Positions 29,613 through 48,122 of a stretch of 64,000 nt of DNA are shown here, piece after piece. This DNA is from Pirellulales bacterium (GTDB taxonomy: Bacteria > Planctomycetota > Planctomycetia > Pirellulales > JADZDJ01). The stretch spans positions 1 through 64,000 of the forward strand of contig DASRSD010000183.1 of assembly GCA_035656635.1 (NCBI GenBank). The letters run 5' to 3'. Positions within the stretch are counted from its first letter, which is position 1. Every line of letters begins with the position of its first letter. The position numbers and the translations under genes are program-made. The notes under the pieces are model-generated. The model was not told the origin of the DNA. It did not search any database and worked only from the letters and a program-made list of their open reading frames with translations.

Positions 29613-32600
29613 TCAATTTCCGCGCAACGCGGCCAGCAATGGGGCGCGTAGAACGGCTCGCACGGCCAGCATTCCGGCCGACACGCCGACAATCAGCACC
29701 ACCGCCAACATGGCGCCGATCGAAAGCCACGGAATGCCAGCCCCGCCCGACATCCAATAGGGGCACAGCGTTACCAGTGCGGCCACCGTTCCCGTGCCCA
29801 GGCCGGCAACAAGCAGCGAAGCGTCTTCCCACAACACCAATTGCGCCAATCGACGTCGTCGGAAGCCTGTGGCTTGCAGCAGTGCCAATTCACCGCGGCG
29901 TTCGAAGACGCTGCGCAACTGCACGGCGGCCAAGCCAAACGTGCCCAGTAGCAATCCCAGCGCGCCCAGGCTGCGAAATGTGGCGAGATATGTGTTTTGC
30001 ACGGCGAAGAACATGGCCAGGCGTGCGGCCGTACTTTGCGTGACGAAACCGTAATCGCTCAAGGCGGTTTCCAAAGCATCGGCAACTTGAGCAGCGCTGG
30101 GCAGCGGCGTGCTGCTCGCTAGTGCAGTCGGGGTGGAAACCGCGGCATCCCCGGCAGCCGGCGGCACGCTCGCCAGAAAAAAACGGTAGCCGCTGGTATC
30201 AGGAAACAGCCGTTGAAAATTTGTTTCGCTCATCAGCAAATCGCCTTGAAAAATACTATTGGCCAACAGGCCAGCAACGCGCAGACGAATTTTTCCGCCG
30301 CGCGGATTGTCGATTTCGAAGACTTCGCCGACGCCGCCGGAAAGATGCAAGCTGTACAAGGCCGTGTTTTGATCGAGCACAACCGGGATGGCATCGGCAT
30401 CGGCTTCCGCAGGCGATTTTTCTTCCGCGGCATTCGCTTCGCGCTTGTGGAGCAGCAGTAACCAGGGATTGTTTTTTTCTCGGACAGTTTTCGCGGCGGT
30501 GGCCGTCCAGGCGAATCCGCCCTGGCCAATGAATTCCAGCGGCAGGCCCAAAATGCGCGGCTGCCTCGGTTGGTACAAATTCAAACAACTGGCGTCGTCG
30601 CCAGCCTGAACGCGCAGAGAATAAATGCGTGTTCCGGCAGCTTCCGCCGCGGACAATGTTTTTTCGGGTTGCGTGCTGAATCCTAAATCTTCTCGAGCGG
30701 CGGCAGAATTCAGGTTTTGATAAATTGGCTGATCGCTCTGAGCGATGAAGGCGTAACCGCCGTCGCCACTGTCGAAATCGGGTCCATGAGTCGGCGCATC
30801 GAGCTGGAACGCACTGAGCGCAACAATCAAAAAACAGGCCGCCGCCGTCAAAGCAATAGTGAGCGTGCTACGCAAGGGATGCCGGGCGGCGCTGCGCCAG
30901 GCCAATCGCACCAGCGCTCCACGACCAATCAGCACCGCGGATCGGCGATCATCTCGGAGCCGGTCCCAAATCCAGGTTAGCAGCGCGGCCAACACCAGGG
31001 CTCCGGCGGTCATAAAGGTGCCGGCCTGCTCCTCGCCGGCTAGCTGCGTGGCCGAAAAGCCGGCGGCGATGGCCGCAATCAGTAGGGCGGCAGCAATCCA
31101 CGGGGTGCGCCGTGCCCGGCGCTTGGGAACAGCGCGATTTTCTTCCGCCCGGCCAGCCAGCAAAGTACGCACACTAACTTGCCGGGTTTGGCGGACGGCC
31201 CAAATGATCGTGGCCAGCGAAATCAGCACGCCGAAAAATCCGCCATGAACCACACTGTGCTCGTCGACATACAAATGTAAAAACGGCGTCGAAATCGCGC
31301 CCAGCCACCAGGTTTTCAAGCCCTCCAACATCAGCCACGCATAACCAATTCCGGCCAATGCGCCCAGTGAAGCCCCAATCAAAGCCACGCAGCCTCCTTC
31401 CACCAGCAGCATGCGCCGCGCCCAGCGTTGCCGCAGTCCGACTGCCAACAGAATGCCCAATTCCGCGGCCCGGCTATCGACTCCCAGCTTGAACAGCAGC
31501 ATGACCAACAGCAGCGCAGCGGCAATGATGAACAGGCTGAATCCTAAAAATAATATCGCAAACGGCGTGGTGCCGGCAGCGGCGGTTAAACTGAGCCGTT
31601 TGACCGGCAGAAATTCAAATCCCAAATCGGCGGGTTTGATGGCCTGCTGTAGCTTTTGGGCGATGGCTTGCTCGGTCAGATCGTCACCAGGCGGAATGCG
31701 AATGGAAGTGGCATTTCCGAAGCGGCTGCCCCACAGTTCACGGCCTTGCTCTAAGCGGATAAATGCCTTGGGTGTGGCTCGATGCTGGCGCCAATATAAA
31801 TCGTCTTGATTGTTGGGGGGCGTGGCGCGCACGCGCTTCGAATCGTAGGGAAACGGTGGATTCCAATCGGCGATGGAGGCTTCGTCGGTGACGCCTTTCA
31901 CCTCGGGCGTGAAATTGGGATCGTCGGCCACGCCGCTGAGCGGGGTAATGTCTTTCAAGCGAAAGCTGTGGCGCGATTCGGCCACTTTGCCATGCGTGCT
32001 TTCCGGTTCGAAATAGGTGAGCACAATTGCATCGCCTGGCTTCACCGGCGTGCCTTGCGCGGCGAAATCGTCGGCGGCCCAGGAGTTGAGCACGATTTCG
32101 TCTTCAAGCAGCGGGCCAATCGGCGAGCCTTCGCGATTCACGAGCGGACCCAGCGGCGGCTGATCAGAAAAATCGATGGCGGCAACGGTGGAATACGGAA
32201 GTTTTCCACGTCCCTCGTCGGCCAGAATGTAATTGGCCAGATAAGTAAATGCCGGCTGGGCGCCCGCCGCGGCAAATGCTTGCTCGGCGGCGGATTCCAC
32301 GGCCGGCTCCAGCAACATGCGGTCAGTGGTAATGTTGAAGTAACCACGGGCTGTTTTGCGAACCGAGATGTTGTAATCGGCGAGCGTCGGCTGCAGCGAT
32401 TGTTGCAAAGACTGCTCGGCGGCGGCATCGGGGATGGCATTCTCGTCCGCACCACGGCCGGAGACGAAAATGGCGTTTACACGCCCATCGACGCCGAGCA
32501 TTTCTTGCAGCGGCTGGATGGCCGTAAAAGCATTGAGCGGCACTTGCTGCGTGGGACGGAGGCCAAAGCGGCCCAATCCCTCGGCCGGAATGATGGCGCT

Positions 32601-33158
32601 AACAAGGAACCGCCGACTGCGGACCGTTTCGGTTTTGCGGCCCAGCGTACTGTCGGCCGGCACATTGCTGGCCTGAGAAAAGCGCAGAACGACTTCATCG
32701 CCGACTTGCACACTTAGCTGATTGGCCAGCGGTTGATTGAGGACGATTTCGTCTTTCACCGGCGGCTTGGGTGGAGCGCCACGGCCGAGCTGCCAAAACT
32801 GCTGGCCCACGCCCAGAACCGCCACATTACCGGCGCGGCGATGGTGATCGCCCACAGGGTTTTCCAAAGTGCCTAACAGCATGATGGCAGGCAGGGAGGC
32901 GGTGAAATTGGATTGGAAACCCGGAGCAGCGCCGACTTCCTCCGCTAGCTTTTCGCGAAAGAAATGAGGCGTAACCAGAGCGGCATCGATTTGGCCGAGA
33001 CGTTCAATCGCTAAGTGCCGCAAGCTGAGCGTGACCGAATCGCCGACCACTAACGCGCCGGTCAGCACTGCCGTGGCGGCCATTACGCCCAGCGATACCG
33101 CCAGATTGCTGCGCCAATGATAGGCGAGGCTGCGAAGGGCGAGGCGGAGGAGGGACAT
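29613..33158 (-). CDS. FtsX-family ABC transporter permease, large
   Basis: 1181 residues. An N-terminal TM helix (NLAVSLGVMAATAVLTGALVVG) is followed by a long extracytoplasmic region (~residues 45-520), then TM bundles near 525-680 (FAILFLGFSLFIIAAALLLVML, SLGALAGIGYAWLML, GFFGVLISLATIIWAV), a second pair with another outer region (TLTIALTAAACFLIVALSAF), and a last bundle (ALGLLLGTFGLAAVQ, MLAVVLIVGVSAGMLAV). This is two FtsX-type permease units in one chain, as in MacB/LolCE-like or lipid-export systems. The ATPase gene is 50 bases upstream on the same strand. A CTAGTGGCTAGGG-type repeat precedes the ATG. Confidence 0.88.
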   Translation of the reverse strand: MSLLRLALRSLAYHWRSNLAVSLGVMAATAVLTGALVVGDSVTLSLRHLAIERLGQIDAALVTPHFFREKLAEEVGAAPGFQSNFTASLPAIMLLGTLENPVGDHHRRAGNVAVLGVGQQFWQLGRGAPPKPPVKDEIVLNQPLANQLSVQVGDEVVLRFSQASNVPADSTLGRKTETVRSRRFLVSAIIPAEGLGRFGLRPTQQVPLNAFTAIQPLQEMLGVDGRVNAIFVSGRGADENAIPDAAAEQSLQQSLQPTLADYNISVRKTARGYFNITTDRMLLEPAVESAAEQAFAAAGAQPAFTYLANYILADEGRGKLPYSTVAAIDFSDQPPLGPLVNREGSPIGPLLEDEIVLNSWAADDFAAQGTPVKPGDAIVLTYFEPESTHGKVAESRHSFRLKDITPLSGVADDPNFTPEVKGVTDEASIADWNPPFPYDSKRVRATPPNNQDDLYWRQHRATPKAFIRLEQGRELWGSRFGNATSIRIPPGDDLTEQAIAQKLQQAIKPADLGFEFLPVKRLSLTAAAGTTPFAILFLGFSLFIIAAALLLVMLLFKLGVDSRAAELGILLAVGLRQRWARRMLLVEGGCVALIGASLGALAGIGYAWLMLEGLKTWWLGAISTPFLHLYVDEHSVVHGGFFGVLISLATIIWAVRQTRQVSVRTLLAGRAEENRAVPKRRARRTPWIAAALLIAAIAAGFSATQLAGEEQAGTFMTAGALVLAALLTWIWDRLRDDRRSAVLIGRGALVRLAWRSAARHPLRSTLTIALTAAACFLIVALSAFQLDAPTHGPDFDSGDGGYAFIAQSDQPIYQNLNSAAAREDLGFSTQPEKTLSAAEAAGTRIYSLRVQAGDDASCLNLYQPRQPRILGLPLEFIGQGGFAWTATAAKTVREKNNPWLLLLHKREANAAEEKSPAEADADAIPVVLDQNTALYSLHLSGGVGEVFEIDNPRGGKIRLRVAGLLANSIFQGDLLMSETNFQRLFPDTSGYRFFLASVPPAAGDAAVSTPTALASSTPLPSAAQVADALETALSDYGFVTQSTAARLAMFFAVQNTYLATFRSLGALGLLLGTFGLAAVQLRSVFERRGELALLQATGFRRRRLAQLVLWEDASLLVAGLGTGTVAALVTLCPYWMSGGAGIPWLSIGAMLAVVLIVGVSAGMLAVRAVLRAPLLAALRGN

Positions 33159-33168
33159 GGCAGCGGAG

Positions 33169-33210
33169 TAAGTGGCTGGTGGTTAGTGGCTAGTGGTTAG
33201 AGAGTGAGTG
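33169..33210. repeat. CTAGTGGTTAGTGG repeat between ABC genes
   Basis: Member of the CTAGTGGCTAGGG family in the spacer between the ATPase stop and the permease start. Confidence 0.7.
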
Positions 33211-33211
33211 G

Positions 33212-33889
33212 CTACGTCGTGGGTGAAAGTTTGCCTGCGTTTAATTCCAAGCGTCGATCGAACAAGGCGGCCAACTCCTGGCTGTGCGTAACGACAATCA
33301 GCATCATTTGCTCGTCGCGCTCCAGTTCCAATAGCAGCTTTCCAACCCCGGCGGCGGTGCTGCGGTCAAGATTGCCCGTCGGTTCGTCAGCCAAGAGCAA
33401 CACAGGCTTGTGAATGAGCGCCCGCGCCAGTGCCACCCGTTGGCGCTCGCCGCCCGAGAGTTCCGCCGGACGGTGATCGATGCGCTGGGAAAGCCCAACC
33501 CGATCGATCAGCATTCGTGCGCGCTCCAAAAGCGCGCCGTTTTGTCCCGCTTGGGCGACCGTGGGGAGCAGCACGTTTTCCAGGACCGAGCATTGCGGCA
33601 ACAGGTAATGATCCTGAAACACGAAGCCAATTTGCCGACTGCGAAAATCGGCCAACTGGGGCTCGTCGAGAGTAAAGGGATTGGCACCTTTTAGTTCGAC
33701 ACGGCCGGAAGTTGGCCGATCCAGCGTGCCGACAATGTACAGCAGCGTGCTTTTGCCCGAGCCGCTGGGTCCTAAAATTGCCACGTTCTCGCCGCGCGAT
33801 AACTCCAATGACACGCCGCGCAACACGGATAGCGATTCTGCTCGTGTGGGAAACTCCTTCGTGATGTTTTCGACAACTAGATCGGGCAT
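33212..33889 (-). CDS. ABC transporter ATP-binding protein (LolD/MacB type)
   Basis: 225 residues. Walker A LGPSGSGKST near residue 39, Q-loop GFVFQDHYLLPQ, signature LSGGERQRVALARAL and Walker B LLLADEPTGNLD, then the H-loop VVTHSQE. Belongs to the LolD/MacB/FtsE class that works with FtsX-type permeases. It is the natural partner of the adjacent 1181-residue permease; the pair is likely a lipoprotein, lipid or peptide exporter or a mechanotransmitting complex. Confidence 0.95.
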   Translation of the reverse strand: MPDLVVENITKEFPTRAESLSVLRGVSLELSRGENVAILGPSGSGKSTLLYIVGTLDRPTSGRVELKGANPFTLDEPQLADFRSRQIGFVFQDHYLLPQCSVLENVLLPTVAQAGQNGALLERARMLIDRVGLSQRIDHRPAELSGGERQRVALARALIHKPVLLLADEPTGNLDRSTAAGVGKLLLELERDEQMMLIVVTHSQELAALFDRRLELNAGKLSPTT

Positions 33890-34145
33890 AGCAGAAGCCG
33901 GTCAACTTAGGACACGTGTGGGTTCAACTGGCAGTTGCTTCATTATCGCGGTGTTGACGTAAGTTGTTGTTCATTGGCAACACGACATCGTGAACTTGCA
34001 TTTACAAAAACGAAATTAGGGGCAATTTGCTCCGGCCCTTGCGGGAGGTTATGCTGGGCCACACAATGGCAGTTCTTTGTCTGGTACCGCGAAGGGCGTC
34101 TGCACAAAGCGAAACTATTTCATCCCCTCAGCAAAGTCAATCACC

Positions 34146-35165
34146 ATGCCTAACGAGCAGCCCGAGGTCATTCTTAGCGCTTTTGCGGACGAGGCTGCCA
34201 ACCAAAAAACGGCGGTTCAGCAGTTTGCTGCCTTGGCTGCCTTGGGATTGCAATACTACAGCATACGGTTCATCGACGCCGGCAATGGCATTAAAAATGT
34301 GATGAAGCTGTCGCGGGCCGAAATTACCGCGCTACGCCATTTGGAAGACGAATATGGGCTGAATGTGACGTGCATTGGCTCTCCCTTGGGCAAAGTGAAA
34401 TTGGTGGACGATGAAGACGGCACCAAAAACGCCTACATACCGTTCAAAAAATATTTGGCGAGCGACGTGAAGCGGGCTTGCGAATTAGCGCATGCGTTTG
34501 AGACGAAGCTGATTCGCGGCTTTTCGTTTTATCCGCCGTGTGGGGCCGATCCCGCCGATTACTTGCCGCAGGCCGTTGATCAACTGGGGCAAATTGCCGA
34601 AGCGTGCCATCGCTCCGACCTGACGTACGGACTGGAAATTGAAGCCAATTTAGTGGGACAAAGCGGCCAACTGATGGCGGAAATTTACCGGCAAGTGAAT
34701 CATCCGGCGCTGGTCTTGATTTTTGACTCGGGCAACATTGTTTCGCAGGGGTACACGGCGGCCGAAGTGTATCAGCAATACTTGGCGATGAAGCCGGGCA
34801 TTGGCTGGATTCATATTAAGGATTATCACCATCCTAAGCCGGCTAAGCGCAAGCGCCATGTCGATGAAGATGGGCTCAAGCATTTTGTGCCGGCCGAATT
34901 GGGAGACGGTTCTTACGCGATGATTCTCCGCGACTTCCGCAAGTCGATTCCAGCGTTGGAAAAGAAATTGAAGCGGCGCGGCATTCCCGGCGTGTTTTTG
35001 GATTTGGAGCCGCATTTGAAAGGGGGCGGCCAATTCGGCGGTTTTAGCGGGCCCGACGGATTGGGTGTGGCTACGCGCAGCCTGTGCCGCGTCTTGGACG
35101 TGGCGGGCATTGGCTATCATTTGCGCGATTTCGACGACGTGCTGGCCGCCCGCGGGAAATGCTAA
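34146..35165 (+). CDS. Sugar phosphate isomerase/epimerase (xylose isomerase-like TIM barrel)
   Basis: 339 residues from ATG 34146. AP endonuclease 2/xylose isomerase-like barrel: ILSAFADEAANQKTAVQQF at the first strand, YSIRFIDAG, CIGSPLGKVKL, YGLEIEANLVG with a metal-ligand-type Glu, LVLIFDSGNI, and WIHIKDYHHPKPA with H and D ligands. It probably isomerises or epimerises a sugar or inositol derivative; the exact reaction is not visible. It converges on the FHA coiled-coil gene (23-base gap). Confidence 0.82.
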   Translation: MPNEQPEVILSAFADEAANQKTAVQQFAALAALGLQYYSIRFIDAGNGIKNVMKLSRAEITALRHLEDEYGLNVTCIGSPLGKVKLVDDEDGTKNAYIPFKKYLASDVKRACELAHAFETKLIRGFSFYPPCGADPADYLPQAVDQLGQIAEACHRSDLTYGLEIEANLVGQSGQLMAEIYRQVNHPALVLIFDSGNIVSQGYTAAEVYQQYLAMKPGIGWIHIKDYHHPKPAKRKRHVDEDGLKHFVPAELGDGSYAMILRDFRKSIPALEKKLKRRGIPGVFLDLEPHLKGGGQFGGFSGPDGLGVATRSLCRVLDVAGIGYHLRDFDDVLAARGKC

Positions 35166-35188: not shown

Positions 35189-38100
35189 TTACGCCTCGGT
35201 CGAGTGCGGCGCCGAAGATTCTGGCGATGCCGTGGAGGCGAGGCTGACCGCTTGGTGTTCCGCGGAGTGTGACTTTGCGGCGCTTTGCTCGTGCGCGATG
35301 GCAGCCAGTTGCACATTTTTGTGCCGCTTGGTTTGCAATAGATTCCGCGCCAGCAGTTGGGTGCGAGTAAGCAGGCCGATCGAAGTGACCACGCCCACGA
35401 GGCCTAGATAGAACCAAGCCGAGGTGTAATCGGGCGAAAAGACAATGAGGCACACTCCGGTTACCATACTTGCCGACGCGGTGCCGAGTGTGCTCCAAAC
35501 TCGGTTCGTTCCACGACGGTGGTGGTGCGTGGCGATGGCGGCACGACTGGTGAGATTGGCAATTTCACGCATGGCGGCCAAATCATGGCTTTTTTCCGGT
35601 GCCGCGGAACGCGGTTCAAATTTTACCGGTCCAGTGGGGAGAGCCGCCGGCGAGCCTGGCGGAGGATTTTTATGTTCGCCCGTTGGCACTGCTGAGGCAA
35701 CCGGTTTGGCATTTTCTGGGATGTAGGTTCGCTGTGAGGCAGACGCGGAAGCATCGCCGGTCATTCCGCGCATCCGTTCGAGCAGCCTCGCCATGTAATC
35801 GTCGACCGAGTCCTCGTTTTCCTCGTCTTCCGCAGAGGCGGACGGAGAGGTTGTGGCTTGCGCGGGCGCCGGCTCTGGCTTGAGTGTGGGAACTATCTCC
35901 GGCGGCGTTACACTCTGGTCTGCGTGAGTTCTTTCGATTACGCTTTCGTCGGGTTCTGCCTTTAACAGCGACATTGCCCGGAGCCTGGCAAACACGGCGT
36001 CGTCGCCAGAAGCCGCTGGCGTGCCAACATCCACGGCAGGAGATTGCAATGGTTCCGGCGGTTGGTGTGTTTGTAACGTTGAAGTTACGGCCGTTGCCGG
36101 CGGTTCTTCCCTAGCTGCTGCAGCAGCATCTTCCAGCTGTTTTATTGAGAGCTGTGCTTGACGATGGTTGGCATGCAGTTCTTTGTGTTCCGTTTTCAAT
36201 AGGGCAAGCTCTTGTCCCAATTGCGCTGCGTGCTGGGTTAATTCCACTTCGCGCTGGGCTTTAGCTTGCTCCCATTGTGCGCGCTCGACGGCGGAATTGT
36301 GCTGTAACTTTTCTAATTCGGTGGAAAGTTGACGCACCTGTTCTTCTCGCTGGCGCGCCAGCGTTTGCAACTGCGCCAACTTGCTGTTTTCTGCAAGCAG
36401 CGCGGTTTCGGTGGCTTGCTGGTCCTGAACCAATGCGTGGCGTTGTTCGTTCAGCGCCGCTTGCTTCAGGGTCAAGTTTTGTTGCTCGAGGGCCAAGTTT
36501 TGTTTGGCTGCCTCCAGCTCGGTTTGGCGCGCGGCAAGCGTGATCTGCAGTTGTTCGATTTCTTGCCGAGTTACAGCGAAAGCCTGTTGCCTCTGCTGAA
36601 GTTCATTCCGTGCTAAGGCGAGCGATTGCTGTTGCTCTTCGAAGGTTGTTTGGCACGTTTGCAGCTTAAATTGTTCGTCGTCCAGCGAATGCTGACGGCG
36701 ATCTAATTCTTGCTTCTGTTCCTCGAGCGCATGCTGGCGTTGGTCGGCTGTTTGTTGACGTTGCTCTAAAGTCTGCTGGCGATGATCCAGGGCTTGGCGC
36801 CTTTGGTCCAACAAGTGCTGCTGTTCGTCCAGCGCCTGCTGGCGCTGCTGCTGCATACGCTCCCGTTCATCCAGCGCCTGCTGACGTTGTTCCGCGGTGT
36901 GTTGCCGTTGCTCAACTGCATTTTGTTGTTCGGCACAGCAGGCGAATTGGGTTTTCAGCTCTTGATGCCGCTGATGGAGTGCCAACTGTTGTTCGGCCAG
37001 TGAGGCTGCCAAAACTTCAAGTTTGGCACGTTGAGCTTGCAGCTTGCTGGCTAAGCCGGTTTGGTCTGCTTCCCAGCTAGCCCTTTGCGCTTGCAGGCCT
37101 TCGATTTGTGTTTCCCAAGCGTAGCGTTGCGCTTCCCAGGCGGACTGGTCAGATTCCCAGTCAGTCTTGGCCGCCTCATAACGGGCACGTTCTGATTCCC
37201 ACGCGCCGCGCTCGGATTCCCAGCGCGCGCGTTCCTGTTCCCAAGCAGATTGTTCCGTTTCCCAGCCGGTCTTGTTCGCTTCATAACGGGCGCGTTCGGC
37301 TTCCCAGTCGGTCTTGGTTGCTTCATAGCGGACGCGTTCGGCTTCCCAAGCCTGTTGCTGCACCTGCCAGGCTTGCCGCTCGGCGTCGAATCGGGTTTGT
37401 TCCGTTTGGAGTTGATCGCGAAGGGCCGCAATATCGGCTTGAACAGCGGATGGTCTCGACAAATCAATTGCCGCGACAGCATCCTGAAACTCCTGCTCTC
37501 GTCGCGCCAAATCTGCAGCTTGAGTTTCAATGGCTGCGGCATGCTCCCCTAACTGTGTTTCCTGATTGGCCAGCCGCGATTCAAATTCTTGCAGCCGAGC
37601 AAGTTGTTCGGCTATCTGGGCTTCGTTTTGGTCAATCGATTGTTTGCGCTGGACTAAATCGGCTTCCACCTGCTGGAGTGCGGCTTCCTTTTGCAGGCAA
37701 TCGTCGTTCCAGTGTTGTTTCTCAACCTCGAGCACGGCGCGATGGGACTTAAAATCGTCTCCCGCCTGTTGGAGCGAGATTTGTTGCTGCTGGAAAGCTG
37801 TTTCTTCTTGGGCCCGTTGATTTAGCCATTGATGCTGTTCCGCTTCGAACGCCGCCTGTTGGTCTTGGAGTTCGGCACAGTGTTGTTGCAGGGCAGCCTC
37901 CTGCTGTTGCAAAGCAGCTTCCTGCTGGCGTGATTTTTCTTCCCAATTATGTCGCTGGGTTTCCAGCATTGCGCGCTGGGCTTCCAGTTCGGCTTCGCGC
38001 TGCTGGATAGCGTCCTGGCGGTGTTGAAATGCCGTATCGAGCTGTGAATTGTGGTCGCGCCAATGGTTCCGTTCTGCTTCGAAGGCAACGCGCTCGGCTT

Positions 38101-39550
38101 CGAACCCAAGTTCGCGCTGGTGGAGAGCCTCATTTTGCTGCTGCCACGACGCATCATTATGCAGGCTTTGCTCTTCCCATTGGCGCCGCTGGGTTTCCAG
38201 TTCAGCTTCGCGCTGCTGGATAGCGTCCTGACGGTGTTGCAAGTCCGCATCTAGCTGCGAATTGTGGTCTCGCCGATGGTCCCGTTCTGCTTCGAAGGCA
38301 AGGCGCTCGGCTTGGAGCTCAAGTTCGCGCTGGTGGAGACCCTCTTTTTGCTGCTGCCACGACGCATCATTATGCAGGCTTTGCCCTTCCCATTGGCGTC
38401 GCGCGGTTTCCAGCATTGCACGTTGGGCTTCCATCTCGGCTTCGCGCTGCTGGATAGCGTCCTGGCGGTATTGCAAGGCCGTATCGAGCTGTGAATTGTG
38501 GTCTCGCCGATCGTCCTGTTCTGCTTCGAAGGCAAGGCGCTCGGCTTGGAGCTCAAGTTCGCGCTGGTGGAGACCCTGATTTTGCTGCTGCCATGACGTG
38601 TCGTTCTGCAGGCGTTGCTCTTCCCAATAGTGCCGCTGTGCATTCAGTTCCGTCTGTTGCAACTCCAGTTCCGCCTCGCGCTGTTGAAGTGCGGCAAGCT
38701 GATTTTGGAACAGCGCTGTCTGCTGGGAATTCTGTTCGTGCCAACTGTGCCGTTCGGTTTCGAGCGCCGCACAGCGATTTTCAAACTCGTTTTGATGTTC
38801 TCGAAACGCAGCTTCCTGTTGCAGCAAGACCGCTTTTTGCCCTTGGCATTGTTCGTGCAACGCTTGTCGTTCGTTTTCGAGCTGCGTTCGCAGTGCTTCG
38901 AGTTCCGCTTCGCGCTGGATGAGCCGATGGAGCTCCTCCTGCATCTGCGCACGGTCTTGGTCCAACGAATCCTGCTGTTCTAAAGCAGCCACGCGCCATT
39001 CCTGCTCGGCCTGCTTGGCGAGAAGCTGGTCCCGATCGCTGTTGTCCTGCCACTGTCGCCGCTGTTCCTTGAGGGCCGCCAAATCAGTTTGCAGTTCCGC
39101 CAACATGCGCTCCAGTTGCTCGGATTCGCCCGACGGTTCAGTCGTTGAAAGCGCGTCGAAATTCTCATCGACAACTTCAAATTCGATCGGCCCCACCGCC
39201 AATCGGTCATGCAGACGCAGCGGCGCCTCATCGAACATGCATTCATTTAGCCGGGTATCCAAAGTCCATCGGCGAATAACGGTTTGCTTGGCGCCGCGTA
39301 GAATCACGCAATGCAAGGGTGCAATTCCGGGCGCTTTCACGCGCAGTGTGCATTGTCGCGAGGAACCAATGGTAACCTTTGGAGAAAGTAGCCGAACGAG
39401 TTGCCCATCGCGCTGGCTGCCGCACACGCGCAAGGTGAGCGCTGTCGGGGGATTTCCCAACAACGATCGACGCGGTGCAGCGGCGGTGGCCGGCATAGAT
39501 GCAGAGCCTAAGCGAAGTGATGCAATCCGCAAGCGCGGCCTGAGCGACAA
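35189..39550 (-). CDS. Giant FHA-domain coiled-coil membrane protein
   Basis: 1453 residues. Residues ~40-130 look like an FHA domain (VTIGSSRQCTLRVKAPGIAPLHCVI, then LRLHDRLAVGPIEFEVVDE). Residues ~140-1150 are almost pure Gln/Glu/Arg-rich coiled coil, containing a 71-78-residue repeat (DNA 38,114-38,795 region), a Trp/Tyr-heptad section (WEAERARYEANKTG type, about DNA 37,085-37,365) and an LDQRRQA/LEQRQQT heptad run. A Pro/Ser-rich stretch leads to two TM helices at ~1357-1371 and ~1378-1396 and a charged tail. Likely anchored in a membrane with a long cytoplasmic rod reading phospho-threonine via FHA. Function unknown. An FHA domain also occurs in the sigma54 activator at 45-47 kb. Confidence 0.85.
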   Translation of the reverse strand: MSLRPRLRIASLRLGSASMPATAAAPRRSLLGNPPTALTLRVCGSQRDGQLVRLLSPKVTIGSSRQCTLRVKAPGIAPLHCVILRGAKQTVIRRWTLDTRLNECMFDEAPLRLHDRLAVGPIEFEVVDENFDALSTTEPSGESEQLERMLAELQTDLAALKEQRRQWQDNSDRDQLLAKQAEQEWRVAALEQQDSLDQDRAQMQEELHRLIQREAELEALRTQLENERQALHEQCQGQKAVLLQQEAAFREHQNEFENRCAALETERHSWHEQNSQQTALFQNQLAALQQREAELELQQTELNAQRHYWEEQRLQNDTSWQQQNQGLHQRELELQAERLAFEAEQDDRRDHNSQLDTALQYRQDAIQQREAEMEAQRAMLETARRQWEGQSLHNDASWQQQKEGLHQRELELQAERLAFEAERDHRRDHNSQLDADLQHRQDAIQQREAELETQRRQWEEQSLHNDASWQQQNEALHQRELGFEAERVAFEAERNHWRDHNSQLDTAFQHRQDAIQQREAELEAQRAMLETQRHNWEEKSRQQEAALQQQEAALQQHCAELQDQQAAFEAEQHQWLNQRAQEETAFQQQQISLQQAGDDFKSHRAVLEVEKQHWNDDCLQKEAALQQVEADLVQRKQSIDQNEAQIAEQLARLQEFESRLANQETQLGEHAAAIETQAADLARREQEFQDAVAAIDLSRPSAVQADIAALRDQLQTEQTRFDAERQAWQVQQQAWEAERVRYEATKTDWEAERARYEANKTGWETEQSAWEQERARWESERGAWESERARYEAAKTDWESDQSAWEAQRYAWETQIEGLQAQRASWEADQTGLASKLQAQRAKLEVLAASLAEQQLALHQRHQELKTQFACCAEQQNAVEQRQHTAEQRQQALDERERMQQQRQQALDEQQHLLDQRRQALDHRQQTLEQRQQTADQRQHALEEQKQELDRRQHSLDDEQFKLQTCQTTFEEQQQSLALARNELQQRQQAFAVTRQEIEQLQITLAARQTELEAAKQNLALEQQNLTLKQAALNEQRHALVQDQQATETALLAENSKLAQLQTLARQREEQVRQLSTELEKLQHNSAVERAQWEQAKAQREVELTQHAAQLGQELALLKTEHKELHANHRQAQLSIKQLEDAAAAAREEPPATAVTSTLQTHQPPEPLQSPAVDVGTPAASGDDAVFARLRAMSLLKAEPDESVIERTHADQSVTPPEIVPTLKPEPAPAQATTSPSASAEDEENEDSVDDYMARLLERMRGMTGDASASASQRTYIPENAKPVASAVPTGEHKNPPPGSPAALPTGPVKFEPRSAAPEKSHDLAAMREIANLTSRAAIATHHHRRGTNRVWSTLGTASASMVTGVCLIVFSPDYTSAWFYLGLVGVVTSIGLLTRTQLLARNLLQTKRHKNVQLAAIAHEQSAAKSHSAEHQAVSLASTASPESSAPHSTEA
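38114..38575 (-). repeat. Tandem 213/234-bp coding repeats in the FHA coiled-coil gene
   Basis: The GCGCTGGTGG landmark recurs at 38114, 38327 and 38561, giving periods of 213 and 234 bases. The 21-base difference equals exactly one heptad (AMLETAR-type insertion), so the coiled-coil phase is kept. Copies are nearly identical over most of their length. Confidence 0.85.
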
Positions 39551-40363
39551 CGCCTAGGCCGTAAACTGCGAATTTCATTGGAGATGTAGCTTATGCTGTC
39601 GCCCGGGTCAAAATCCGAAGCTCGGAATGTACGCCGGCATCGTCAAACCGGCCGCAGTGGCAGTGCTCATTTCTGGTTCGCTAGCAGCCGCACAATTCTG
39701 TGCCGTTGCCGTCTTTTCGGCAGAAATGGCTGCACCTGCTGGCCGAATTTGCCGATTATCCCATAGCGACCGGCGACCGGTCGTCGTAATCGTTACGGTC
39801 GGAAAAATTGAATCAGCCTTGTTCTTGGCGCACAGAAATCGTCCGCCGCCACGGACAAGTTCGCAGCGGCAATTTGTTTTTTCAGCGATGTTTTCTGGTG
39901 GTGGGTTTGTGAATTTTGTCACTTAAGTGTCCAAGTCGCGGTGGCTCGCATCATTGGGCATTGTCAGTTATTGCGAGATCAAAATACTTGGCCGATTTCG
40001 CCGGACGCCTATGATGTTTTGCCGAAAAATGGTGCCCTATGGTTTGTAAAACGTTAAAAATCAAGTTTTTAGAAATTTACCAGAGTCTGACGACCCAATT
40101 CGTCGGATTCACGTACTATATTTGGTTTGCTAACCACAGGCGACCGCAGCCTGTATATGTGGAGTCGTGGAACAATAGTGAACGAGGTCACAGAAAATTT
40201 TGACGGTTGAGCACGTTGTTTGAAGGGGGTTGAGGCACGCAGGTTCAATGTTCGGGGTGAATTTCAGCCGCCGTGGTCTAGGGCGGCGCGACCCAGTTCT
40301 TGGGCCCGGGCGGTCTCCAATAACTTTCTGCTTCCGCCGGCCGTCGGGTAAAGGGTAACCCAC
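39551..40363. other. 813-base region without a confident gene
   Basis: Two overlapping frames on opposite strands (39627-39926 plus, 99 codons; 39608-39922 minus, 104 codons) compete, neither with a clear ribosome site or known family. The rest contains an A/T-rich stretch (40040-40140) and a small gacga/tcgtc hairpin near 40090-40110. No tRNA, terminator or repeat recognised. Confidence 0.5.
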
Positions 40364-40810
40364 ATGGCACGTAAAGATGCACTGGTCAACATGCGTCAAA
40401 TTTTGATCAAGCGGCGCGACGCCCTCCGCAAAGCGCTGGCGGGCGACTTGAGTTTGCTCAAGGAGTTGCGGGCTCAAACGGCCGGCGACTTGGTCGATGC
40501 CGCCTTGGACTCGGCGCAAGATGAAATTAGCTCCCAGTTGGCGGAGGTCGAAAGCCGCGAACTGGCGAATGTCGAAAACGCGTTGGAACGGATGCGCACT
40601 GGGAACTATGGCGTGTGCGAAGGCTGTAGTTGTAAAATCCCAATTGCCCGGCTCAATGCCTTGCCGTACGCCACCTATTGCATTCAATGTGCCCGCGAGG
40701 TCGAGAAGTACGGTTCGGCCGGCGGCCACGACCAAGATTGGGGCCGAATCAGCGATTCCGGCGGCGAATCGGAAGCCACGCTCGATGACATCGAGTTGGA
40801 TGTTTCGTAA
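40364..40810 (+). CDS. DksA/TraR-type zinc finger protein
   Basis: 148 residues. An N-terminal coiled-coil hairpin (residues ~10-85) carries acidic residues (GDLVDAALDSAQDE) where DksA has its catalytic-loop aspartates. The C4 zinc finger is CEGC...CIQC within YGVCEGCSCKIPIARLNALPY. DksA-type proteins insert into the RNA polymerase secondary channel and tune transcription with ppGpp. The acidic tail (GESEATLDDIELD) is an addition. Located upstream of the HtrA-type protease gene, 230 bases away. Confidence 0.9.
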   Translation: MARKDALVNMRQILIKRRDALRKALAGDLSLLKELRAQTAGDLVDAALDSAQDEISSQLAEVESRELANVENALERMRTGNYGVCEGCSCKIPIARLNALPYATYCIQCAREVEKYGSAGGHDQDWGRISDSGGESEATLDDIELDVS

Positions 40811-41038
40811 CCGGCGGGTTTCCTTCCCAGCGGCAGATTCAGCCAATTCGAGTTTCCAGGGAGGGCGGCGCGACAGCCCACCGAAGCATTTATCTTCGGT
40901 CCGGCCAACGCATCGCCCTCCCATTTTGTTGCGCCCGCGGAATTTCTCAGCATAATTTTCCCGCGGGGCGCATTTTACGGGCGGCTTAAGATTTGGCATA
41001 CTTAGTTGTTTGAGGGGTTTTTGCTTCGGAGTTTTTGT

Positions 41039-42217
41039 ATGGTTGCAGCGCGATTGATCGAAGCCGGCCGGGTCCGCAAAAATTGGCTTGCCGGGTTGGT
41101 GCTGGGCACGTTTTTGAGCTCTTGGCTGGCGGCCGCCCCGGCGGCTTTGGCCCAGCAGTGGAACGAAAAAGAACCGACTCCCGAAGAACGCGCCAAGCAG
41201 TTCGATGATTTGGCGGTGGAATCGGAGCGGTTGCAGCAGGCCGGCAACGTGCTGCGAAAGGTTTCGCACCTTGTGAAGCCGTCCGTGGTGCACATCGATT
41301 CGGTTCGCAAAGATCGCTACGCGCGCAAGGAAGAAGATGCCGGCTCCGGCACCATTCTCCAATTCGGCGAGAAGTTTTACGTGCTCACCAATCGCCACGT
41401 CATTCGCGATGCCACCAGCGACAACATCACCATTAAGTTGGCCGATGGCCGCGAAATTCATCCTGTCCGCATTTGGGCCGATCAGCCCACCGATATTGCC
41501 GTCGTCAGCATTCAAGGCTCGAACCTGGTGCCGGCCCGCGTCGGCAACAGCGACGATATCGATGTCGGCGATTTCGTGCTGGCCGTCGGCAGCCCGTTCG
41601 GGCTGAGTCAGTCGGTCACGTTTGGCATTATCAGCGCCAAAGGCCGGCGCGATTTGGAATTGGACGAAGGCTCCAAAGATATTCTGAAATTTCAAGATTT
41701 CTTCCAGACCGATGCTCCCATCAATCCCGGCAACAGCGGCGGACCGCTGGTGAACATGAAGGGAGAAGTCATCGGTATGAACACGGCCATTGCCTCCAGC
41801 ACCAATAGCAGCGCCGGCGTGGGCTTTACCATTCCCATCGACATGGCGATGATTGTCGCCAAGCAACTCATCGACCACGGCACGGTGACCCGCGCTTACT
41901 TGGGCGTGGTGTTTTACAACAAGGAAAAAGACAAGGACAAATTCTCGGCCGCCGAGTTTATTAAAATTGGCTTGCCGCGCCCCGAGGGGGCCAGGCTTGC
42001 CGGCGTGGTGTCCAAGTCGCCGGCCGAAGCGGCCAAGCTCCAGCGCGATGACATCATTCTGGAATTCAACGGCGTGCCGATCGAGGACGACAGCCACCTC
42101 ATGTTCCTCGTGAGCCTGATCGAAGTCGGCAAAGACGTGCCCATCACCGTGTTCCGCGCCGGGCAACCCATCCACCTGTCGGTCAAAGTCGGCGACCGGG
42201 CCGATTACCCCGAGTGA
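41039..42217 (+). CDS. HtrA/Deg-type serine protease with PDZ domain
   Basis: 392 residues from ATG 41039. Signal peptide/anchor ending near AAPAALAQQ, a short helical linker, then a trypsin-fold domain with triad H120 (TNRHV), D152 (TDIAV) and S233 (GNSGGPL). One PDZ domain at ~290-385 (YLGVVFYNKE, AGVVSKSPAEAAKLQRDDII). Acts outside the cytoplasm in protein quality control. One PDZ domain resembles DegS rather than DegP, but the absence of a clear retained TM anchor leaves this open. Confidence 0.95.
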   Translation: MVAARLIEAGRVRKNWLAGLVLGTFLSSWLAAAPAALAQQWNEKEPTPEERAKQFDDLAVESERLQQAGNVLRKVSHLVKPSVVHIDSVRKDRYARKEEDAGSGTILQFGEKFYVLTNRHVIRDATSDNITIKLADGREIHPVRIWADQPTDIAVVSIQGSNLVPARVGNSDDIDVGDFVLAVGSPFGLSQSVTFGIISAKGRRDLELDEGSKDILKFQDFFQTDAPINPGNSGGPLVNMKGEVIGMNTAIASSTNSSAGVGFTIPIDMAMIVAKQLIDHGTVTRAYLGVVFYNKEKDKDKFSAAEFIKIGLPRPEGARLAGVVSKSPAEAAKLQRDDIILEFNGVPIEDDSHLMFLVSLIEVGKDVPITVFRAGQPIHLSVKVGDRADYPE

Positions 42218-43038
<821 letters not shown>

Positions 43039-45194: not shown

Positions 45195-47081
45195 TCAGCG
45201 GTTGATGCCGTACTCTTCGATTTTGCGGTACAGCGTGGCCCGGCCAATGCCCAGCAGCTTGGCGGCTTCGGGCACATTGCCATTGGTGCGTTTCAGGGCT
45301 TCGCCGATGAGCCGGCGTTCCCAATGGTCCAAGGCCAGTGTTTCCATTTCGGGCGCGCCGCTTAAATCGTGCAGGCCCAGGTCGCCGGCTTCAATGCGAT
45401 TATCGCCCGCCATGACGACGGCGCTATCCAGCACGTTGCGTAACTGGCGGACATTGCCGGGCCAGTTGTATCCCAGGAGTTTTTGGCGGGCCTCGGGGGA
45501 AATTTCCAAATTCGGCCGGCCATGCTGGCGGCGAAAGTGATCGAGAAAATAATTTGCCAACAGGTTAATGTCGCTCCCCCGATCGCGCAGCGGCGGCACC
45601 ACCAGCTCGAACACGCTCAGGCGGTAGTACAAATCTTCGCGAAATTTCTTCTGGCGAACGTAAGTTTGCAAATCTTGATTAGTGGCGGCGATGATCCGCA
45701 CATCGGCGGTTACTTCGTGCGAGCTGCCCACGGGCAAAAACGGATGCCCTTCTAAAATTCGCAGCAGCTTGGCTTGCCCTTCCAGGGTCATTTCGCCCAC
45801 TTCGTCCAGGAACAGCGTGCCGCTGTCGGCCTGTTGGAAAAAGCCGATGTGGTCGCGGTCGGCGCTGGTGAACGCGCCGGCTTTGTGGCCGAACAGTTGG
45901 CTTTCCATGAGCTCGTGCGGAATGGCGGCGCAGTTCACGCACAGCATGGGGCGATCGGCCCGCGGACTGGCTTTGTGAATGGCGCGGGCCACCAGCTCTT
46001 TGCCCGACCCGCTTTCGCCGCGCACCAGCACGCTGCCGCCAGCCTTGGCCAGCCGGCCGATTTTGGATTTTAGTTCCCGCATGCCGGTGGAATCGCCGAC
46101 GAGCTCGCCGAAGACGGAAGATTTTTCGACGAGCCGCTGATAATCGGTTTCCAGCGCGGTTTGCTTGCGAGCGCGGATTAGCGCAATTTCCACAATGTGC
46201 GCCAGCGACATGGCAAAATCGAAATCGCCCTGGCGGAAGCGGCCCTGGGCCAAATAGGCGTGAATGGCGCCGAAAGTGTGTTTCTCTGTGACCAGCGGCA
46301 CGCACAGGGCGTCAGCGTAATGGCCCAGGCTGTCGGACTGCGGATTGCCGCGCTGCTTGGCGATCCACACCGCGTGACGCTGGCGGCAGACCAATTCGGT
46401 GAGCGAATCGGAAAGATCGCTGGGCTCACGCGAGCCTTCGGGAATCACCAGCTTGGGCTTGAGCCGGCCTTCGTCGTCGACCCACAAGAAGCCCACCACG
46501 GAAGCTTTGGTTTGAGCCTGCAGCAGTTCCAGCGCGATGCGCACCACTTCGTCCGGCTGCGGGCAACCCAAGAGCTTGATGCTGAGTTGATACAGCACCA
46601 GCAATTGCTTGGCTTGCTCGAAATCGCGGACGGCGGCCAGGCCCAGCACGCCGGTATCGCTGAGCGATTGAGCAGCGTCGCGGGCTTCATGCACCGGCGC
46701 TTCGCGGACAATAGTGTTGGTGTACGTTTCCAGCGGGGCGGCGACAAATACCGTGGGCGGCTGATCGGCCAGATGAAATTCGAATTCGTTAGAACCCACG
46801 CGAACGTTGTGTCCTTCGTCCAACACAGCTTCGTCCGTTTTTTGGCCATTCACAAAGGTGCCATTGCGGCTGCCGCAATCGCGGACGATCCAACGACCAT
46901 CGCCATCGAGCAGCACTTCGGAATGCACGCGGGAGCAGAGCGGATCGCCCAAAATAATTTGGCAATCTTCACCACGGCCCAACCGGGTAACGGTGGAGCG
47001 GTCGAGCAGAAAGTGTTCGCCGGCACGGCCGCCAACCGTCATCGTGAAGTAGGCGAATTTTTGAGCAGTGGCGACAGCCAT
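45195..47081 (-). CDS. FHA-GAF-sigma54 activator (NtrC family)
   Basis: 628 residues from ATG 47081. FHA domain at ~15-105 (TRLGRGEDCQIILGDPLCSRVHSEV, RNGTFVNGQ), a GAF-like domain at ~150-310, an AAA+ domain at ~335-560 (Walker A GESGSGKE, Walker B TLFLDEVGEM, RDLYYRL-like FREDLYYRLSVFE), and a Fis-type HTH at the end (AAKLLGIGRATLYRKIEEYG). The sigma54-contact loop reads GAFTSA instead of GAFTGA. Activates sigma54 promoters, probably in response to phosphoprotein binding by FHA. It is divergent from cbiX. Confidence 0.93.
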   Translation of the reverse strand: MAVATAQKFAYFTMTVGGRAGEHFLLDRSTVTRLGRGEDCQIILGDPLCSRVHSEVLLDGDGRWIVRDCGSRNGTFVNGQKTDEAVLDEGHNVRVGSNEFEFHLADQPPTVFVAAPLETYTNTIVREAPVHEARDAAQSLSDTGVLGLAAVRDFEQAKQLLVLYQLSIKLLGCPQPDEVVRIALELLQAQTKASVVGFLWVDDEGRLKPKLVIPEGSREPSDLSDSLTELVCRQRHAVWIAKQRGNPQSDSLGHYADALCVPLVTEKHTFGAIHAYLAQGRFRQGDFDFAMSLAHIVEIALIRARKQTALETDYQRLVEKSSVFGELVGDSTGMRELKSKIGRLAKAGGSVLVRGESGSGKELVARAIHKASPRADRPMLCVNCAAIPHELMESQLFGHKAGAFTSADRDHIGFFQQADSGTLFLDEVGEMTLEGQAKLLRILEGHPFLPVGSSHEVTADVRIIAATNQDLQTYVRQKKFREDLYYRLSVFELVVPPLRDRGSDINLLANYFLDHFRRQHGRPNLEISPEARQKLLGYNWPGNVRQLRNVLDSAVVMAGDNRIEAGDLGLHDLSGAPEMETLALDHWERRLIGEALKRTNGNVPEAAKLLGIGRATLYRKIEEYGINR

Positions 47082-47222
47082 AGGCGCATGTACAATGATG
47101 AATGACGCAACAGAAATTACGACGATTGGGCCAGCAGCCGCGCGAATCTCAGTTCGAGAATTCTCAGTTCGAGATTTCGGGCAGCCCACGCAAACCTTTA
47201 ATATACCAGGATTATCGGATTC

Positions 47223-48122
47223 ATGGGATTCCCGCAGACCAGGCAATCTGTGAAAAATGGCCTCCTTTTGGTGGGGCATGGAACACGAAATGCGCGGGGG
47301 CTCAATGAGTTTTGGACGGTAGCTCGGCAGGTGGCGGAGTTGGCCGACGAATTTGTGGTGGAACCATCCTTTTTAGAGCTCGCCGAGCCAGCCATTCCTG
47401 CGGCAGTGGAGCGATTATTGCAGCAAGGCGTGGAACGGTTAACGGTCGCACCAATATTGCTGTTTGCGGCCGGCCACGCTAAGCGCGATATACCTGCGGC
47501 AGTGGCGGAAGCGGTGCGTGGCCATGATGATAAAGCCGCGACCGGTGGTCGCGCTGCGGCTGAGAACGTGGCAGTGAATTACCTCGGCGCGTTGGAATGC
47601 CACCCGAAAATTCTGGAGCTTTCGGCGCAGCGGTTCGCAGAAGCAGTGCGCGATAAACCGCACGTGGATGCAGCGGAAACCCTGCTGCTGTTGGTAGGCC
47701 GCGGCAGTTCGCACGCCGATGCCATTGCCGCCATGCGGAAATTTGCCGCATTACGCAATCCGTACAGCGATGTGGACCGAGTGGAAACTTGTTTTGTCGC
47801 CGTGGCCCAACCGACGCTGGAAGAAGGGTTGAGTTTGGCGGCGCACAGCGGCTATCGGCGGATTGTCGTGCAGCCGCATTTATTGTTCACCGGCGAGGTG
47901 TTGGAGCAAATTGCGGAAGAAGTGGCCCGGGTGCAGGAAGCCGGAAACAATGTTCAGACGTATAAAGCCGCGACCGTTGGTCGCGCTGGAGCAGAACTGG
48001 AGCGAGCATCGAGCATGGGGGGGCCGCGCGATCAAGAATGGATCATCGCGCACCCTTTGGGGCCATCGCCGCTGGTGGCCGAGGCCATGGTGGAAATTGT
48101 CCGGTCGGCGAGGCATTTATGA
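47223..48122 (+). CDS. cbiX: CbiX-type sirohydrochlorin/cobalt chelatase, two-domain
   Basis: 299 residues; GTG 47250 (KNGLLLVGHGTRN) is an alternative start. Two CbiX/HemH-like halves: LLLVGHGTRNARGLNEFW with VAPILLFAAGHAKRDIP, then LLLVGRGSSHADAIA with VVQPHLLFTGEVLEQI. The metal-binding histidines are the ones in VGHG and AGHAKRD. Inserts cobalt or iron into sirohydrochlorin. Two in-frame palindromic repeats encode KAATGGRAAAEN and KAATVGRAGAE. Confidence 0.88.
   Translation: MGFPQTRQSVKNGLLLVGHGTRNARGLNEFWTVARQVAELADEFVVEPSFLELAEPAIPAAVERLLQQGVERLTVAPILLFAAGHAKRDIPAAVAEAVRGHDDKAATGGRAAAENVAVNYLGALECHPKILELSAQRFAEAVRDKPHVDAAETLLLLVGRGSSHADAIAAMRKFAALRNPYSDVDRVETCFVAVAQPTLEEGLSLAAHSGYRRIVVQPHLLFTGEVLEQIAEEVARVQEAGNNVQTYKAATVGRAGAELERASSMGGPRDQEWIIAHPLGPSPLVAEAMVEIVRSARHL
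47530..47555. repeat. AGCCGCGACC-GGTCGCGCT palindrome in cbiX, copy 1
   Basis: 26-base unit whose arms GCGACC and GGTCGC pair around a GGT loop. 25 of 26 bases match copy 2 at 47962-47987. Confidence 0.85.
47962..47987. repeat. AGCCGCGACC-GGTCGCGCT palindrome in cbiX, copy 2
   Basis: Same unit with GTT loop; read in the same reading frame as copy 1, giving KAATVGRAG. Confidence 0.85.

Follow-up and report, generated by a model that had tools for sequence, protein, structure and literature searches.

Our analysis indicates that a long reading frame in the window (the whole 64,000-nucleotide stretch of DNA that was analysed) belongs to a planctomycete protein family in which an N-terminal FHA head and a C-terminal module with a membrane hairpin are joined on one chain. 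The conserved feature is that these two ends are joined, the length of the rod between them being free to vary. The distribution of the family, its two conserved ends, its variable rod length and the loss of the triad of residues for binding phosphothreonine (pThr) are new. We think it probable that the protein is a membrane-anchored cytoplasmic tether or scaffold, with a head that docks independently of phosphorylation.

The gene and its family

The minus-strand frame 35189-39550 runs for 1453 codons with zero stops; the plus strand of the same interval is full of them. Because its G+C content by codon position (0.72/0.41/0.58) follows a coding pattern and because it is conserved in relatives, with a match in 52 of 57 related genomes (some of these matches being other FHA proteins), the frame is shown to be a gene, of which its own genome holds a single copy. 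In the closest homolog the protein starts (MPATAS...) at the position equivalent to ATG 39496, so that this codon is probably the true start, likelier than TTG 39550. The single chain of FHA domain, rod and C-terminal membrane helices described by the first-pass annotation is borne out by sequence, profile and model evidence (Table 1).

Table 1. Coordinates of the gene, its parts and its neighbours in the window
Feature	Position	Strand	Remarks
Xylose-isomerase-like TIM barrel protein, convergent	34077..35165	+	stops 24 bases short of the FHA-rod-hairpin gene's 3' end
FHA-rod-transmembrane hairpin gene	35189..39496	-	1435 aa from ATG 39496; 1453 aa from TTG 39550
Transmembrane hairpin, residues ~1352-1371 and 1378-1397	35360..35497	-	both ends predicted cytoplasmic
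Motif 2 RSAAPEKSHDLAAMREIANLTSRAAIATHHHRR, residues 1314-1346	35513..35611	-	cytoplasmic stem of hairpin helix 1
Motif 1 ENEDSVDDYMARLLERMRG, residues 1244-1262	35765..35821	-	acidic, then amphipathic helix
Gln/Ala/Glu/Leu/Arg-rich rod, residues ~146-1149	36104..39115	-	one internal Pro, residue 700
Heptads with Trp or Tyr at each seventh residue, residues ~735-818	37097..37348	-	read from translation
About three tandem copies of a 71-78-residue unit in the rod	37967..38683	-	213/234-nt repeats
FHA fold, residues ~36-131 of the 1453-aa frame	39158..39445	-	pThr triad lost
DksA/TraR-type zinc-finger protein, divergent neighbour	40364..40810	+	conserved neighbour in the order
HtrA/Deg-like serine protease with PDZ, next divergent neighbour	41006..42217	+	conserved neighbour in the order

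A search of the taxonomic distribution, which had been proposed as a check, was run and places the family in two planctomycete lineages. A profile of the C-terminal modules of 37 members (alignment A1) matches in the window's order, probably Pirellulales, in 43 of its 49 listed genomes, and in a different order in 40 genomes of a single family, f22, which, to judge by its size, is probably Planctomycetaceae; among the listed genomes of four other families of the same class (f21, f23, f24 and f25) it has zero matches. Beyond the class, sampling of the phylum with the C-terminal module gave just four weak matches (E 4e-5 to 5e-4), which cover mostly the membrane part and which we treat as chance. 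In the window's order and in that one family of the second order the protein is mostly single-copy, and the rest of the phylum is essentially without it; a search of plasmid records for relatives of the FHA head found none. Of 32 further loci picked solely by their C-terminal module, all 32 also had the FHA head, and in 31 both lay on one chain (at the exception, L089, the module falls under the local threshold). In all, 63 chains bear both ends. Among open-access papers we found none on a planctomycete FHA coiled-coil membrane protein, and the main text of a paper on the essential genes of Planctopirus limnophila mentions neither FHA nor coiled-coil proteins (PMC10632474).

Head, rod and membrane hairpin

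On the single sequence, Pfam gives matches to Yop-YscD_cpl (27 bits) and FHA (15 bits), both under the cut-off. Tested by profile and by fold search, the head has the FHA beta-sandwich: a profile of the family alignment, compared with solved FHA domains, matches that of FhaA at E 3.6e-8, the core of the AlphaFold model of the head reaches a pLDDT of about 95-98, and FHA domains fill the matches of a structure search with this model (best Z 16.3, rmsd 1.5, 92 aligned). The N-terminal FHA domain proposed from the sequence thus stands, and the outcome that had been named as counting against it, structure models without an FHA fold, is not what the AlphaFold model gives.

While the fold is retained, the pThr pocket is lost. 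An alignment of 63 members to FhaA and Ki67 shows that 3 of them have the pocket Arg and 2 the Ser, and that none has the Asn, since the NGT loop is shortened in all 63; the window's protein has Ser, Ala and a gap at the three positions. The conserved His and second Asn are kept in this alignment. The window contains a control, an FHA-GAF-sigma54 activator-Fis protein (45195-47279, minus strand), in which GRG, SRVH and RNGT are all intact. An FHA domain with a dispensable pThr site has a precedent in PrgH (PMC3635987). Because the triad is lost and the fold is not, we infer a docking surface that would act independently of phosphorylation. Judging from these residues, conventional reading of phosphothreonine by the head is improbable, though a head without the canonical triad might still, strictly, have an atypical phospho-site. 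The first-pass annotation implied that the head reads phosphorylated partners and suggested pulling them down; a triad lost family-wide, and intact in the window's other FHA domain, does not support that reading, and since it is lost in 63 members such a pull-down is probably the wrong experiment.

The rod is rich in Gln, Ala, Glu, Leu and Arg. Residues 161-1160 consist of 19% Q, 15% A, 14% E, 11% L and 9% R, with 3 Pro and 12 Gly. In windows of 35 residues along the whole rod, 28% exceed the shuffled 95th percentile for heptad periodicity, where 5% would be expected; the family median is 29%, and the signal lies above shuffles in most members. Periodicity is strong at residues 661-1000 (period 6.9-7.06 plus a 3.5 component) and weaker and mixed (6.5 and 7.8) in the remainder. 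Few Pro and Gly and a hydrophobic heptad periodicity, the latter judged against shuffles, agree with the coiled rod of about 1000 residues that had been proposed. The run of heptads with Trp or Tyr at each seventh residue is unusual for a coiled-coil core. Matches of the rod to HmpF and SMC in NCBIfam are far under the cut-off, and we rejected both identities, attributing the matches to coiled-coil composition.

Rod length in the 63 members spans about 155 to 1520 residues, about tenfold, with both ends kept, and in some members (L064, L101 and L054) a short or Pro-rich connector takes the place of the rod; not every member of the family has a long rigid rod. The tandem copies in the window's rod point to growth by in-frame duplication. 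The earlier idea of a long span across the cytoplasm is supported, but, given this range of lengths, no one fixed distance is conserved. As to the suggested relevance to the unusual internal membranes of planctomycetes, the family is missing from other families of the same class.

The C-terminal module contains two conserved motifs. In A1 the consensus of motif 1 is EESIDDYMxxLLxRxRG, with Tyr and Met each at 90% or more and Arg16 invariant; that of motif 2 is RxAPExxxDLxAMRELANxSARxAIxxH, which has an invariant Arg85 and runs into the hairpin; a variable Pro/Ala-rich linker lies between them. The structural model of the module shows a short motif 1 helix, a low-confidence unstructured linker and two hairpin helices, 52 and 48 residues long, which reach beyond the membrane-spanning part. 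Hydropathy by itself flags one transmembrane segment in the window's member, whereas the family model gives a helical hairpin and so supports the two C-terminal membrane helices first read there; a crude hydropathy threshold finds two segments in only 51 of 69 members. Positive residues flank the hairpin (mean K+R 4.5 and 3.8) and its loop is nearly free of them (0.4), and because of this distribution of charge both ends are predicted to lie in the cytoplasm. Pfam gave no recurrent family for the module across the 37 members, neither module nor rod matched a Pfam or NCBIfam family above the curated cut-off, and no enzymatic domain was found in the protein with either collection. A structure search with the hairpin returned no significant neighbour (best E 0.6), as expected for a two-helix hairpin.

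Gene neighbourhood and alternative roles

The gene is monocistronic: its flanking genes are convergent or divergent, and the first-pass annotation was right that there is no obvious operon partner. The gap between the divergent starts (39497-40363) measures about 870 bases, and a search of 39400-40450 against Rfam found nothing. A frame of 855 aa at 40130-42697 on the minus strand was rejected as a gene, being a shadow of the plus-strand DksA-like and HtrA-like genes. At 29613-33889, also on the minus strand, lie a 1181-aa FtsX-like permease and an adjoining ABC ATPase, an arrangement kept in the closest relatives (L031 and L032). In the second lineage, two divergent genes (of about 380 and 520 aa) adjoin the ortholog at 8 of 20 loci; the gene pair beside the ortholog at L074:10560-13450 has no Pfam match.

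Could the neighbours reveal the role? Within the order, an HtrA-like gene lies near the ortholog in the same divergent orientation at 35 of 50 loci, and a DksA-like gene at no fewer than 30 of the 50, an undercount in that short frames were dropped in part of the locus set. This would be expected of an envelope-stress or membrane-quality component working with the protease and the DksA-like factor. However, these genes lie on the opposite strand and not in one operon, and the second lineage, which retains the FHA-rod-hairpin protein, lacks the pair at all 19 loci. We therefore take its role to be independent of the neighbourhood and regard such a partnership as improbable. A phospho-dependent receptor, whose head would bring pThr-proteins of Hanks-type kinases to the membrane, has in its favour that the FHA fold is certain and that pThr binding is the usual role of the fold; yet with the triad lost across the family and kept in the control domain, we consider a receptor very improbable.

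Two further readings start from likeness to known proteins. The best Pfam match, weak and under the cut-off, is Yop-YscD_cpl, and YscD and PscD occur among the fold matches, which might suggest a remote member of the YscD/PrgH family of type III secretion. The head is nevertheless closer to FHA domains of the FhaA/GarA type, the chain ends as a hairpin and short tail that leave no room for periplasmic ring domains, and there are zero secretion genes among ten annotated neighbours; of what marks that family (an FHA domain, one transmembrane segment, ring-building periplasmic domains and a secretion cluster) the full set is not found at the window's locus, and membership is barely credible. More plausible, but still rather unlikely, is an organiser of polarity or of the bud site like TipN or PodJ, marking a pole and recruiting polar machinery in budding planctomycetes. 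TipN is a membrane-anchored coiled-coil polar scaffold of Caulobacter. Such scaffolds do play this part in Caulobacter (PodJ: PMC10127582), and the family is conserved in two lineages, mostly as one copy. On the other hand, the comparison is one of anatomy, without a known sequence relation to PodJ or TipN, and the family is absent from other families of the class, some of which also bud.

Proposed mechanism and closest known systems

How might a tether or scaffold with a phosphorylation-independent head work? The hairpin would anchor the protein in the inner membrane, both ends being predicted to lie in the cytoplasm, and the rod, probably an oligomeric coiled coil, would set the head at a distance from the membrane. 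In a fully helical rod, about 1000 residues at 0.148 nm per residue could extend up to about 150 nm, an upper bound. The head would dock on a protein partner through its phosphorylation-independent surface, while motif 1, a short helix within a disordered linker near the membrane, may form a second docking site together with the motif 2 stem. In-frame repeat duplication could alter the rod length freely, the joined ends staying as they are. More speculatively, and with considerable doubt, this length-variable tether might be a lineage-specific spatial organiser in FtsZ-free bacteria, tying to the inner membrane a complex docked on the FHA head independently of phosphorylation, be it at the division or bud site, the chromosome or a membrane fold. 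Planctomycetes are described as dividing without FtsZ (PMC12283558). Our analysis defines, in two planctomycete lineages whose FtsZ-free division and envelope organisation are poorly understood, a conserved family with an undescribed C-terminal module for which Pfam has no model; it shifts the search to phosphorylation-independent partners of the FHA head and of motif 1, and with rods of such widely differing natural length the idea of a tether can be tested directly.

Several known systems resemble the protein in part. YscD, PrgH and CdsD are likewise membrane proteins whose FHA fold has a poorly conserved pThr site (PMC3635987), but they differ in their ring-forming periplasmic domains and secretion context and have no rod. 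PodJ, with its long cytoplasmic coiled coil and inner-membrane anchor (PMC10127582), is alike more loosely, in anatomy and not by membership; PodJ and TipN have no FHA head and arrange their parts in another order. The closest solved sequences and folds to the head are the FHA domains of FhaA (TB39.8/Rv0020c) and GarA, although FhaA, unlike the planctomycete head, keeps the pThr triad. We know of no FhaA or GarA joined to a rod and hairpin of the planctomycete kind. The FHA domain of SLMAP, a tail-anchored eukaryotic protein, binds phosphorylated partners. SLMAP is alike in the order of its parts, with an N-terminal FHA domain, a coiled coil and a C-terminal anchor (PMC2712456). It differs in having a single tail anchor where the planctomycete protein has a hairpin, and the likeness is one of anatomy, not of membership; compared with SLMAP, the planctomycete family has motifs 1 and 2 as features specific to it.
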